This document shows, one piece after another, positions 46,366 to 60,371 of a stretch of DNA of 64,000 nt. This DNA comes from Saccharibacillus brassicae (lineage in GTDB: Bacteria; Bacillota; Bacilli; Paenibacillales; Paenibacillaceae): assembly GCF_006542275.1 (NCBI RefSeq), contig NZ_CP041217.1, positions 4,900,501 through 4,964,500 on the forward strand. Reading direction: 5' to 3'. The position numbers and the translations under genes are program-made. The number at the start of each line of letters is the position of its first letter. The stretch's first letter is position 1. Below the pieces are notes generated by a model. It searched no databases. It was not told the DNA's origin and saw only the letters and a list, made by a program, of their open reading frames with translations.

Positions 46366-47349
46366 ATGACCCATCCTTTTGAAGTCCAGAATAGCGGCAC
46401 ACGCGGCCGGATCGGCCCCGGCAGCGCACATCCGCGCGTGGTCGACAGCATCGTCGACCTGATCGGCCGTACGCCGCTGGTGCGTCTCGGCCGGACGGCT
46501 CCGGCGAACGCGGCGGATATTTACGTGAAGCTGGAATATTTCAATCCGTCGGGCAGCGTCAAAGACCGCGCCGCGCGCGGCTTGATCGAAGCGGCGGAGC
46601 AAGCCGGTCGGCTCGGCCCCGGCAGCACGCTGATCGAGCCGACGAGCGGCAATACCGGCATCGGTCTGGCGATGATCGCCGCGGCCCGCGGCTATCGCGT
46701 GATCCTGATCATGCCGGACAATATGTCGCGCGAGCGGATCAACCTGCTCAAAGCGTACGGAGCCGAAGTGGTGCTGACGCCGAGCGCCGAGCGGATGCCC
46801 GGCGCGATCGCCAAAGCGCTTGAGCTGCAGCGTTCGATTCCCGGCAGCTATATCCCGCAGCAGTTCGAAAATCCGGCCAATCCGAACGCGCACCGGGGAA
46901 CGACCGCGCTGGAAATTCTGGAACAGACCGAAGGAGTTCTGGACGCGTTCGTCGCAACGGCGGGAACGGGAGGGACGATCACCGGCACGGGAGAGACGCT
47001 GCGCGCCGCGCTGCCGGACCTGCATATCGCGGTGGTCGAACCGGAAGGCTCGCCTGTTCTGTCCGGCGGCGTACCGGGTCCGCACAAGCTGGTCGGGACG
47101 AGTCCCGGCTTCGTTCCTGCGATCCTGAACACCGGCGTGTACGACGAGATTATCCGTATTCAGGACGACGAGGCGCTGGGCACGATGCGCGACCTGGCCC
47201 GGCTCGAAGGCATGCTGCTCGGTCCGTCGTCCGGCGCTTCGGTCCACGCGGCCATGCGGATCGCCATGCGGCTAGGTCCGGGCAAAAAAGTCGTCTGCAT
47301 CGCGCCGGATACCGGCGAGCGCTATTTGAGCATGGGCCTATTCGATTAG
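46366..47349 (+). CDS. cysK: Cysteine synthase (O-acetylserine sulfhydrylase)
   Basis: A 327-residue PLP enzyme making cysteine from O-acetylserine and sulfide. The PLP-lysine is Lys66 in NPSGSVKDRAAR; TSGNTGIG binds the substrate, and GTGGTITGTGE holds the phosphate. The N-terminus is about 20 residues longer than usual (NSGTRGRIGPGSAHPR). AGGAG lies eight bases before ATG 46366. It could instead be a cystathionine-beta-synthase-like paralogue. Followed closely by a DinB-family gene. Confidence 0.9.
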   Translation: MTHPFEVQNSGTRGRIGPGSAHPRVVDSIVDLIGRTPLVRLGRTAPANAADIYVKLEYFNPSGSVKDRAARGLIEAAEQAGRLGPGSTLIEPTSGNTGIGLAMIAAARGYRVILIMPDNMSRERINLLKAYGAEVVLTPSAERMPGAIAKALELQRSIPGSYIPQQFENPANPNAHRGTTALEILEQTEGVLDAFVATAGTGGTITGTGETLRAALPDLHIAVVEPEGSPVLSGGVPGPHKLVGTSPGFVPAILNTGVYDEIIRIQDDEALGTMRDLARLEGMLLGPSSGASVHAAMRIAMRLGPGKKVVCIAPDTGERYLSMGLFD

Positions 47350-47367
47350 ACAGGGAGGAAGGCAAGC

Positions 47368-47910
47368 ATGGAACAGCAAAAGCTGCATATTTCCGCACTG
47401 CCCGGCTATCCGGAAGAAATCGGGCGCCAGCTGTGGATGATGGAAGACGTCCGCCGCGAGCTGCTGCAAAAATTGCAGGGCACCACGCAGGAAGAACTCG
47501 ACGCGGAGCTTGAAGGCAATCCGTCGACGGTCGGTTCGCTGCTGTACCATATCGCGGAAGTGGAGACGAGCTGGCTGCATTTCGACCTGCTGCAGCAGGA
47601 TCGGCTGGACCCGGAACTGGAGTCCTGGTTTCCGCGGGGCGCACGCAACGAATTCGGAGAAATCCATTCGCCCGCGGGCGAAAGTCTGGAGCATCACCTG
47701 AATCGGCTGGCCGCGGTCCGAAGCGATTTTCTGCATAAGTTCCGTTCGGTCGATCTGCGCGACTGGCGGACGTTCCGCAGCCTGCCGGACGAATATGACG
47801 TAACGCCGGAGTGGATCGTGTACCATCTGATTGAACACGAAGCCCATCACCGCGGACAAATTTTCCGCATTCTCGGTACGCTGCGCAGACGCGGCGCCCA
47901 GACCGAATAG
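47368..47910 (+). CDS. DinB-family protein
   Basis: A 180-residue four-helix-bundle protein. The three metal-binding His positions are probably in LYHIAEVE and HLIEHEAHHRGQI. DinB-like proteins include thiol transferases and stress proteins; the precise role is unknown. It starts 18 bases after the cysK stop with GGGAGGAAGG, so it is probably co-transcribed. Confidence 0.85.
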   Translation: MEQQKLHISALPGYPEEIGRQLWMMEDVRRELLQKLQGTTQEELDAELEGNPSTVGSLLYHIAEVETSWLHFDLLQQDRLDPELESWFPRGARNEFGEIHSPAGESLEHHLNRLAAVRSDFLHKFRSVDLRDWRTFRSLPDEYDVTPEWIVYHLIEHEAHHRGQIFRILGTLRRRGAQTE

Positions 47911-47934
47911 AGACGCGAACCGGACGCACGGAGC

Positions 47935-48012
47935 GGAACCGAACGGATAGGATAGGAAGGTACAGGATAGGAACGCATAGGATAGAAACGGAATAGGATA
48001 GGATAGGAAAAA
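47935..48012. repeat. Short degenerate repeats of GGATAGGA
   Basis: Seven or more copies of (A)GGATAGGA separated by a few bases, in the 323-base gap after the DinB gene. The rest of the gap has a pair of CTTGAGTCTTGC repeats (about 48140-48172) and an ATCTGT-rich stretch up to 48240. Confidence 0.75.
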
Positions 48013-48027
48013 AACTCGGCTTCACCG

Positions 48028-48062
48028 GAACAGCCCGCCTTCGCGAAGAAGGCGGGCTGTTC
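48028..48062. terminator. Strong hairpin, probable terminator
   Basis: GAACAGCCCGCCTTC and its complement, a 15-bp stem with loop GCGAA. There is no direct T tract on either strand. Confidence 0.6.
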
Positions 48063-48233
48063 GCGCGGAATCGGCAGGCGCTCTGGGAAGCCGGTCGATG
48101 CAATTTCCAGGCAATTTAGCGGAGCGCCGCTCGGCGGCCTGAGTCTTGCATTTGGCTGCTTGAGTCTTGCGCTCGGCTTTGGCTATCTGTCTCTCGCGTC
48201 TATCTACTTTTTATCTGTCTGGTTTCCATCTGT

Positions 48234-50465
48234 TTATCTGTCCAATAGAGGCGGTTGGTTTTTGTCCGTCACGATCTGGCCCGTATGCGCGTCGATCAAC
48301 CGAATGCCGCGGCCCGATTTCCGGTCGACGAGCGCGTAACGAAGTTCGTCGCGCTTTTCGCCGGAATCGTCGTCCGGGTAGACCGTCGCCCACGTCAGGC
48401 GCGGTTCGAGCGCGGCCAGCAGCCGGCGCTTGGCTTCGTCCGCGGACAGGGAAGGGACGAGCGGCAGCGATTCCAGCTCGGCCATGTCCAGATCGGCATC
48501 CATATAAAGGGTGACGCGCCCCGTCGTTCGATTCACGTTGATCGACACCTGATGGAAAAAGCCCGGTACGCCGTTTTTGCACACGGAGAAAATGAAAGCC
48601 GCCGTTCGGCGCCGGGCCGGAGGTTCCGCTTCAGACTTGTCAGGTCCATCAGATGTGTCAGGTCCATCAGGTTCATCGGACGCATTCAGCCGCAAATACG
48701 GAAACAGCAGCGGATCGGCCGCATGCAGCAGCGTCAGCGCAAGCTCAAGGCAGGCATCGTCGCTTAGGTCCAATTCGCCGACTTCTTCGTGCAGGTTCAT
48801 CAGTCCGCGGAGCCGGCCGCTGACCGTATCGAACCGGAGTTTGACCGTTCCTTCCAGGCGTTCGCGCATATAATCGTCCAGCGTATACGGTTTGACGCTT
48901 TCGGCCGTTCCGCCATGTTCGCCCACAGGCTTGCCTTCGTCCCGGCGGCGGTACACGACCGTTTTCTCGCGGCCGGTCGTTTGTTCGCGCAACAATTCGT
49001 AGTCGGCTTCCCGAATGCCCAACGTTTCCGGCAGGTCTGCCGGATCGGGAAGCGCCGTCCGAACGCCGCGGCGCATAAAGTCCGCGATCGGTTCGCGGCT
49101 TCCCGCGCATGGGTCAGGGATGTCCGCGGCAGGCAAATCGCCTGCCCCAGGCCGCGCCGGCTGCGAGCTCGGAAGCAGCGCGGAACGATGGGTCAGATAC
49201 GGATTCGGCATATAGACCAGATGCAGCCGGTTGTCGCCCGGCACATGCACTTCTTCGTGCAGCGTCATGAAATGCAGGTTCAGCTCCAGCTCCCGGTCGA
49301 TCTGCTCCAGCACCTGTTCGGGCGTTAACAGCCCATCCGGCAGAGCAGGCTCCGCTCTCGCGCCGAAATATTTGAATCCCGTCACGAATCCGGCGCGGTG
49401 CAGGTCGATCCAGAATCCCGAACGGGGCAGCGGCATTCCGGCGGCATGCTGGCTGAACGTGAAGAAGAGGCGGTCGCCGCGGTCTTCGGTCTCCGGGCCG
49501 TTGAACTGCTCGAACGCGTCGGGATAATGATCCCGCACGAAACGTTCGCCGATCTCCAGCAGTTCGTCCGGTTCCAGGCGTATCTGCCGGTCGGCTTCGT
49601 GGTACAGCCCGGGATCGGCCGCGTAATCGATCAGATCGCCGTCCGGCGTCAGCGTCACGGAGATGCCCGTATCGGTGCCCGGCTTCGTCCGGATGAACAG
49701 CAGTTCGCTTGCGGCGCCGTCGCGGGGGAACGCGTCTTCGATAAACGGAACCAGCTCGGATTCCGCGGCGGCGAAGTGCCGCCTGGTCAAAGCCTGGGCG
49801 CGTTCTCTCCATTGATGCAGCAGACTATGCAATTCCGATTCCAATTCCGATTCCAGTTCCATTTCCGTCTCCTCCCGTGCGGCGCGATCGTCTTCCAGCC
49901 GGGCCCGGACACGCCGGCGATCTTCGATCTCGCTTCGGTATTGTTTGCGCAGCAGCGTCAAGCCTTTGTGTTGATATGTCTTCACGGTGCCGAGCGGCAG
50001 TTCCAGCAGTTCGGCGATATCCGTCAATTTGAGATCGTGCATGTATTTCAACCGGATGACGGTGCGGTATTTGGGCGGCAGAATCGACAGCGCCTGCATC
50101 AGGTCGAGCCGCCGGTCGGTCTCTTCGCGCGGAGCGGCCAGCGTATTCGCTTCCGCTCCGCCCGTCGCTACCGTTCGGCGGCTGCTTTTGAGCAGGCTCA
50201 GCGAGACGTTAATAACGATACGAATCAGCCATGTGCGAAAATAGTTCGGGTGCTCCAGCGCGGGCAGCGCGGTAAAAGCGCGGCAGATCGCTTCCTGCAC
50301 CGCGTCTTCGGCGTCGGCGGCGCTGCGCACGTAATAGCCGGCGACCCGCAGCATTTGGGCACGTTCGGCGACGATCAGCTCGGCGAACGCCGAGGCGTCG
50401 CCCCGGGCCGCCCGCCGAACGCGTTCGTCGAAAGCGGCCCGTGTGGCAGGGGAATTCAAAGGCAT
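48234..50465 (-). CDS. ECF sigma factor fused to a YcdB/YcdC-like region
   Basis: A 743-residue protein. Residues 1-180 are an ECF sigma factor: region 2 (ASAFAELIVAERAQMLRVAG, DAEDAVQEAICRAFTALPAL) and region 4 (ILPPKYRTVIRLKYMHDLKL, LPLGTVKTYQHKGLTLLRKQ). An acidic helical linker (about 195-225) follows. The remaining 500 residues resemble two repeats of the YcdB/YcdC (DUF4901, PepSY-like) domain, for example RLFFTFSQHAAGMPLPRSGF with VTGFKYFG, and AAFIFSVCKNGVPGFFHQVS with NRTTGRVTLYMDADLDM. No signal peptide or membrane helix is present, so the fusion is cytoplasmic. No anti-sigma gene is adjacent. AAGGAG is only three bases from ATG 50465; TTG 50459 fits better. Confidence 0.75.
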   Translation of the reverse strand: MPLNSPATRAAFDERVRRAARGDASAFAELIVAERAQMLRVAGYYVRSAADAEDAVQEAICRAFTALPALEHPNYFRTWLIRIVINVSLSLLKSSRRTVATGGAEANTLAAPREETDRRLDLMQALSILPPKYRTVIRLKYMHDLKLTDIAELLELPLGTVKTYQHKGLTLLRKQYRSEIEDRRRVRARLEDDRAAREETEMELESELESELHSLLHQWRERAQALTRRHFAAAESELVPFIEDAFPRDGAASELLFIRTKPGTDTGISVTLTPDGDLIDYAADPGLYHEADRQIRLEPDELLEIGERFVRDHYPDAFEQFNGPETEDRGDRLFFTFSQHAAGMPLPRSGFWIDLHRAGFVTGFKYFGARAEPALPDGLLTPEQVLEQIDRELELNLHFMTLHEEVHVPGDNRLHLVYMPNPYLTHRSALLPSSQPARPGAGDLPAADIPDPCAGSREPIADFMRRGVRTALPDPADLPETLGIREADYELLREQTTGREKTVVYRRRDEGKPVGEHGGTAESVKPYTLDDYMRERLEGTVKLRFDTVSGRLRGLMNLHEEVGELDLSDDACLELALTLLHAADPLLFPYLRLNASDEPDGPDTSDGPDKSEAEPPARRRTAAFIFSVCKNGVPGFFHQVSINVNRTTGRVTLYMDADLDMAELESLPLVPSLSADEAKRRLLAALEPRLTWATVYPDDDSGEKRDELRYALVDRKSGRGIRLIDAHTGQIVTDKNQPPLLDR

Positions 50466-60317: not shown

Positions 60318-60371
60318 TTTCTTGATTTTCCGTATTTCAAAAACCGTCTTATTTCAAAAAGCGTCCTATCC

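Follow-up and report, generated by a model that had tools for sequence, protein, structure and literature searches.

A 64,000-nt stretch of a Saccharibacillus genome (hereafter the window) contains a reading frame that begins as an ECF sigma factor and runs on into a large YcdB/YcdC-like region, which raises the question of whether the two parts form one genuine protein and, if so, whether the second part regulates the first. The frame spans 743 codons at 48234-50465 on the minus strand, opens with ATG and holds no inner stop; its features are collected in Table 1. An earlier note had placed sigma regions 2 and 4 within residues 1-180, and Pfam locates both inside that interval with scores over the cut-off, while the region 3 family finds no match in the protein. 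The fusion protein scores 83.1 bits against the TIGR02937 sigma70-ECF model (cut-off 42.9) and 142.9 bits against the TIGR02954 sigma family, where it stays under the curated cut-off of 188.5; among solved structures, the sigma half is closest to SigW. The note had also held that the chain continues behind the sigma domains without a break or a membrane helix, and this is what we find: the frame is open throughout, and the highest 19-residue Kyte-Doolittle mean is 1.32, which by hydropathy leaves no membrane helix (0.97-1.80 for the corresponding maxima across eight Saccharibacillus fusions).

Table 1. Positions in the window of the fusion gene, its domains and its putative expression signals.
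Feature	Position	Strand	Evidence
ECF sigma factor - YcdB/YcdC fusion gene, 743 aa	48234..50465	-	Reading of the open frame; orthologues
Sigma-70 region 2, residues 33-98	50172..50369	-	Pfam PF04542 (Sigma70_r2), E 8e-12
Sigma-70 region 4, residues 120-170	49956..50108	-	Pfam PF08281 (Sigma70_r4_2), E 3.5e-12
Hypervariable linker, residues ~181-212	49830..49925	-	Alignments of fusions and sigma-less homologues
YcdB/YcdC module, residues ~213-743	48237..49829	-	End-to-end alignment with sigma-less homologues
DUF4901 repeat 1, residues 238-367	49365..49754	-	Pfam PF16244
DUF4901 repeat 2, residues 487-654	48504..49007	-	Pfam PF16244, E 5.9e-8 (C-terminal half scanned alone)
Weak PepSY-like stretch, residues 673-732	48270..48449	-	Pfam PF03413, E 0.17, below cut-off
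Internal Shine-Dalgarno-like GGGAGGAG	49869..49876	-	Linker comparison, Saccharibacillus genes
ATG in frame at codon 202, from which a free 542-aa module might be translated	49860..49862	-	ATG with Shine-Dalgarno
ECF-like promoter motif (AAAACC-N17-GTCCAAT), conserved; 28 nt upstream of the start codon	50494..50523	-	8 of 8 Saccharibacillus fusions

The remainder of the protein had been described as a soluble YcdB/YcdC region, and comparison of the C-terminal part with YcdB/YcdC profiles bears this out. DUF4901, the YcdB/YcdC repeated domain, matches the whole protein with E 3.5e-28 (99 bits against a cut-off of 27) in two stretches, and repeat 1 is the better of the two. Fourteen sigma-less homologues were aligned, two of which (G680 and a tandem copy in G013) cover only part of the module profile; the five that we inspected pair from first to last residue with the part behind the linker, indicating that a whole YcdB/YcdC protein and not a fragment stands behind the sigma domains. 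Among solved structures the module has no significant match (best E 1.6).

A further element of the earlier description, that the C-terminal part is of PepSY type, stood in part. The Pfam PepSY model (PF03413) reaches 12.6 bits on the fusion, below its cut-off of 24, and a more distant kinship appears through YpeB: a profile of 14 module sequences aligned by hhalign with a profile of four YpeB-like proteins gave 91% probability and E 9.6e-7 over 165 columns that span repeat 2 and the weak PepSY-like stretch. The DUF4901 model in turn gives 27.5-29.4 bits (cut-off 27) on three YpeB proteins (L212, L213 and L214) that were chosen because they already matched it. From these comparisons the YcdB/YcdC module appears to be distantly related to YpeB and PepSY-type proteins. 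YcdB/YcdC proteins and YpeB carry the same module as the fusion, YpeB as a distant relative, but are without its sigma half; DUF4901 also matches in B. subtilis. YpeB acts outside the cytosol. As YpeB passes the DUF4901 cut-off, annotation by that model alone may mislabel it.

The premise that YcdB/YcdC proteins are normally exported, from which the earlier note had started, found no support. N-terminal hydropathy is at most 0.87 in 16 of 18 sigma-less homologues of the C-terminal half; the values of G019 (1.49) and G876 (1.25) are as high as those of some exported proteins, and the sigma-less homologue in G147 has an inner hydropathic stretch of 1.73. Longer DUF4901 proteins carry a hydrophobic segment at the start, with S-layer domains in all three that were scanned, and these clearly exported proteins are a separate, longer class. 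Judged by hydropathy, the export premise fails for most close relatives of the module, and export of the module in the window protein is rejected on the same measure.

Could the joint between the two halves be an artefact of frameshift, assembly or annotation, the outcome that the earlier note had named as fatal to its reading? Full-length fusions occur in 8 of 16 Saccharibacillus genomes, namely the window genome and 7 of the 15 others, where identity to the window protein is 50-62% and the frames are open. The prediction that close relatives keep the fusion therefore holds within the genus, and it extends to at least 20 intact fusions elsewhere in the class: a family profile search over 394 genomes adds G318, G384 and 13 genomes with a 658-aa form, and wider samples (398 genomes of the phylum and 398 of the class) add G607, G928, G946, G863 and G1154. 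At least 28 intact fusions are thus present in four families of the class, and these counts are lower bounds, given that the family search and one wider sample scored two candidates per genome and the other sample up to three. In four pairs, the sigma half has dN/dS values of 0.12-0.24 and the C-terminal half values of 0.17-0.34, which places both under purifying selection. With 28 intact, open-framed fusions from separate genome assemblies and purifying selection running through both halves, a joining artefact has next to no chance of being correct, and we reject it on the strength of these orthologues. One copy of the 658-aa gene (G187, L154:4619-6594) is disrupted, leaving open pieces that code for 383 and 215 aa.

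The earlier note had found no anti-sigma gene, and a Pfam scan of the eight genes neighbouring the window fusion agrees, returning the PALP, DinB/MST, acyltransferase, luciferase-like, YolD, rhodanese, MurB and beta-galactosidase families. No anti-sigma-like frame lies directly downstream: a 317-aa frame at 47150-48103 (-), 130 nt downstream of the fusion, lies opposite the DinB and PALP genes and has no Pfam match. The best-scoring separate sigmas of the family are organised differently. We considered 11 of the 12 best-scoring non-fused loci in the family search (G093, at a contig end, was left out), and 10 of these have a downstream frame of 327-500 aa that carries a hydrophobic segment (1.6-2.4) and overlaps the sigma gene, overlap being counted from the first possible start; the two such frames that were scanned matched DUF4179 and DUF5643. 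The DUF4179/DUF5643 partner has its own overlapping gene with a hydrophobic segment, unlike the fused module, whereas none of the 28 fusions has an anti-sigma-like frame of 327-500 aa overlapping it or within 60 nt downstream. Probably the soluble PepSY-like module stands in for the usual separate membrane inhibitor.

Smaller genes do occur behind some fusions. In G384 the end of the fusion gene shares 19 nt with a 73-aa frame (L106:8114-8335) that contains a hydrophobic segment and matches no Pfam family. In S. endophyticus (L014:1124-1450) and S. sacchari (L015:1111-1443) the fusion is followed immediately by a small lipoprotein gene, which is found in pieces at this place in S. qingshengii (L013:3618-3845); the product has a SpaI-like (lantibiotic immunity) domain, just over the cut-off in S. 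endophyticus, and a relative of the gene is also found in G014, a genome without the fusion.

Evidence on how the fusion gene is controlled comes from its upstream region. All eight Saccharibacillus fusions have AAAACY-N17-RTCCAAT 24-34 nt before the start. Identity is 93-96% in the columns of the motif and falls to 29% over the 60 nt upstream. The motif contains the AAC of the ECF -35 element, and its -10 element reads RTCC where the ECF pattern has CGT. A wide form of the pattern, with the 17-nt spacer fixed, precedes 27 of 28 fusions (13 of these 27 being near-identical copies), 5 of 11 separate sigmas and none of 18 sigma-less YcdB homologues, and was widened after the sequences had been seen; the narrower first pattern gave 12 of 22, 5 of 11 and 0 of 18, respectively. 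The background amounts to 28 matches on both strands of 522 kb at 20 loci, or 0.011 per window searched, true sites included. In the single fusion without the pattern (G863) the contig ends 86 nt upstream, and in G607 and G928 the pattern lies 4 nt before the first TTG of the frame, such that the true start is probably further in. Because the motif goes with the sigma half, the fusion sigma likely autoregulates its own gene.

We found no sign of a wider regulon at strict-motif stringency across 16 genomes, in which no target beyond the fusion gene emerged. The strict motif occurs once in the 5.6-Mb window genome, at the fusion gene, and the eight genomes with a fusion hold 19 occurrences (8 at the fusion gene) against 23 in the eight without. 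A search of three genomes with the spacer fixed at 17 nt gave four further sites in the window genome, one in S. deserti and none in S. endophyticus. A second pattern match within the window, at 60340-60368 (+), lies between two convergent genes and is probably due to chance.

The linker offers a second signal. In 8 of 8 Saccharibacillus fusion genes it contains an in-frame ATG with a Shine-Dalgarno sequence 6-9 nt before it; across these genes, such a sequence precedes 8 of the 17 ATGs in the linker and 3 of the 97 in-frame ATGs elsewhere. We suggest that a free module may also be made from this internal start in Saccharibacillus. Alternatively, the ATG and its Shine-Dalgarno sequence may be a relic of two formerly separate genes or a by-product of the amino acids of the linker, with no free module produced, a reading to which we assign an appreciable but minority chance. 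When the genes were resampled synonymously, the chance of a Shine-Dalgarno sequence was 0.007-0.46 per gene, so that in kuerlensis (0.46) and endophyticus (0.45) the amino acids alone make it likely; the eight genes are, moreover, orthologues and not independent, which means that these chances must not be multiplied, and 10 of 11 fusions tested outside the genus are devoid of the internal start (the exception being G607). A relic or by-product accords poorly, however, with the excess over ATGs elsewhere in the genes, with the conservation of the Shine-Dalgarno columns (identity is 75% there and 35-42% in the adjoining columns of a linker whose length and sequence both vary) and with the Shine-Dalgarno word falling in different codon registers in different species.

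One explanation for these observations, and the one towards which we lean with some reserve, is that the fusion encodes an ECF sigma which activates its own gene and has its regulator attached in cis, probably as an inhibitory module released by an intracellular signal. The arrangement common among its nearest separate relatives, a sigma gene with an overlapping gene for an anti-sigma-like protein of a single membrane pass, would have been replaced by one chain of sigma domains, flexible linker and soluble PepSY-like module. The module would most likely fold back on the sigma domains and keep them off RNA polymerase, much as the PepSY protein YpeB may do with SleB, until an intracellular signal releases them. 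Sigma, once free, would then transcribe its own gene from the AAAACC-N17-GTCCAAT promoter, creating positive feedback. In Saccharibacillus the internal start would probably yield a free module as well, which could bind sigma in trans and set a threshold. The architecture and its conservation, the lack of an anti-sigma gene, selection on both halves, the promoter motif and the internal start signal are what the sequences show; inhibition by the module, the cytosolic signal, feedback on the gene itself and translation from the internal start are what we infer from them. More tentatively still, Saccharibacillus may make two proteins from one gene, with their ratio setting the switch, and many stand-alone YcdB/YcdC proteins of the class may descend from fusions by loss of the sigma half.

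The sign of the module's effect could be the opposite, given that the extension of ECF42 is needed for activity. The sigma would in that case be inactive without the module, as ECF42 with its TPR repeats, and would be completed by whatever protein or ligand the module binds. According to PMC8999054, ECF42 sigmas depend on their extensions for activity, and part of the extension seems to be required in ECF41; conservation of both halves suits an activator too. We nevertheless think an activating module unlikely, as the PepSY relative YpeB may hold its partner SleB inactive until degraded (PMC13393411) and a free module made from an internal start would be more natural for a titrating inhibitor. 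A more radical alternative is that the module has no effect on sigma at all and performs a cytosolic job of its own, the fusion ensuring that both are made together and sigma amplifying expression of the module. Sigma-less soluble YcdB proteins are common and stand among the fusions at several points of the C-terminal tree; that they are common also counts against the inhibitory reading, in that the module has some job without sigma. The sole target found is the fusion gene itself, and the free module is just what the internal start would produce. Such an arrangement would, however, leave the sigma without visible restraint in 28 fusions that have no overlapping anti-sigma-like gene, and the fusion has been kept in four families; we regard it as quite improbable. 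For the inhibitory module held in cis, YpeB is by analogy the nearest precedent for the module, and ECF41 and ECF42 are the nearest for the architecture.

Fused regulators are not new among ECF sigmas: at least 26 ECF groups carry N- or C-terminal extensions that are thought to regulate (PMC8999054). ECF41 (e.g., Ecf41Bli) resembles the fusion in joining an ECF sigma to a soluble C-terminal regulatory domain with no anti-sigma gene. Its extension is SnoaL-like and about 100 residues long, with a WLPEP motif in the linker between sigma2 and sigma4 (PMC3426412; PMC8999054), whereas the fusion has about 530 residues of YcdB/YcdC repeats in that place; the SnoaL family has no match in the fusion at E up to 10 (Pfam), and WLPEP is absent from all 19 fusion proteins checked. 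Sigmas that bear WLPEP, and are hence ECF41-like, are encoded in S. sacchari and the window genome (L139:2501-3781 and L140:2029-3042). ECF42 likewise shares with the fusion a large soluble C-terminal extension and the absence of an anti-sigma gene. Its extension consists of TPR repeats and a YCII-related protein is found in its neighbourhood (PMC8999054); the TPR family has no match in the fusion at E up to 10 (Pfam). ECF48, ECF52 and ECF53, with a fused membrane anti-sigma, have a transmembrane helix after the sigma domains, unlike the fusion with its low maximal hydropathy; the zinc-finger family has no Pfam match in the fusion.

A further group to consider is ECF264, whose reference protein (WP_037286607.1) is from Saccharibacillus sacchari, in the same genus as the window fusion. 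Table 2 of PMC8999054 places ECF264 among the groups with regulatory extensions, under the mechanism 'others', and gives it without a description of the extension. S. sacchari encodes two sigmas with long extensions, the YcdB fusion of 705 aa and one of 524 aa whose extension is different, and ECF264 may therefore stand for the YcdB/YcdC fusions or for the second of these proteins. The 524-aa protein (L138:4084-5658), the rival candidate for ECF264, is the counterpart of a 549-aa ECF sigma with DUF1835 (E 1.8e-6) in the window genome (L137:3226-4872 (-), C1 ~2312222-2313871). Our literature searches, which did not extend to the main ECF classification, found no described sigma with a YcdB/YcdC or DUF4901 extension; fused ECF regulators are known from ECF41 and ECF42, and YcdB/YcdC as the fused part may be undescribed, save possibly for ECF264. 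The so far uncharacterised YcdB/YcdC module gains a testable role as an intracellular regulator of sigma, and, if this is true, a PepSY-like holder has been put to use on transcription.

Finally, we considered how the fusion arose and spread. In phylogenies of the sigma half the fusions form one group, with support of 100/96 for 15 fusions and 83/89 for 17 fusions with other outgroups. The tree of the C-terminal half is interrupted in several places by sigma-less proteins, requiring six changes of which at least five are forced by supported branches. Both trees are unrooted, and the simplest reading of them is a single early fusion, after which the sigma half was lost several times; exchange of modules may instead account for the pattern. 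For a split ancestor, in which the genes for sigma and a free YcdB protein would be neighbours, we examined G825, G1035 and G1146, three loci where the profile match continued beyond a sigma stop codon, and rejected them: behind the sigma gene they have a frame of 452-466 aa that does not resemble the module. Likewise, no adjacent pair of sigma and YcdB genes occurs among the sigma-less loci listed.

Recent movement is evident for the 658-aa form. Its DNA is 92.5-98.6% identical across three genera, against 77.8-82.1% for a piece of rpoB, a comparison that covers nine of the 13 genomes and uses rpoB because MurB, tried as the transfer control, had no match in 13 genomes. The copies (L107, L110-L121) share a common block of ~2.1-2.6 kb with the promoter inside it, and their flanks differ. 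This comparison indicates that the 658-aa form has moved recently between genera by horizontal transfer; in collections of plasmids and phages it has no match, and the window module has none among the plasmids. Being a single gene with its own promoter that has moved between genera, a self-contained switch of this kind would suit synthetic circuits as a compact part. The flanks of some copies appear by eye to hold transposase remnants and short interspersed repeats, and in G289 (L118:1780-3176) a separate sigma gene with a 297-aa frame behind it lies ~2 kb upstream of the transferred fusion.

Module relatives were also found close to other genes. In Saccharibacillus sp. O23 a sigma-less relative lies 69 nt upstream of the fusion (L136:8322-9734), and this separate copy is another route to a free module; S. 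deserti retains a 182-aa remnant of such a relative directly upstream of its fusion (L131:5416-5964). In G330 (L108:4708-7597) the frame of a sigma-less YcdB-like protein and a ParB-like gene have 35 nt in common, which is another tie of the YcdB module to a DNA-binding protein.
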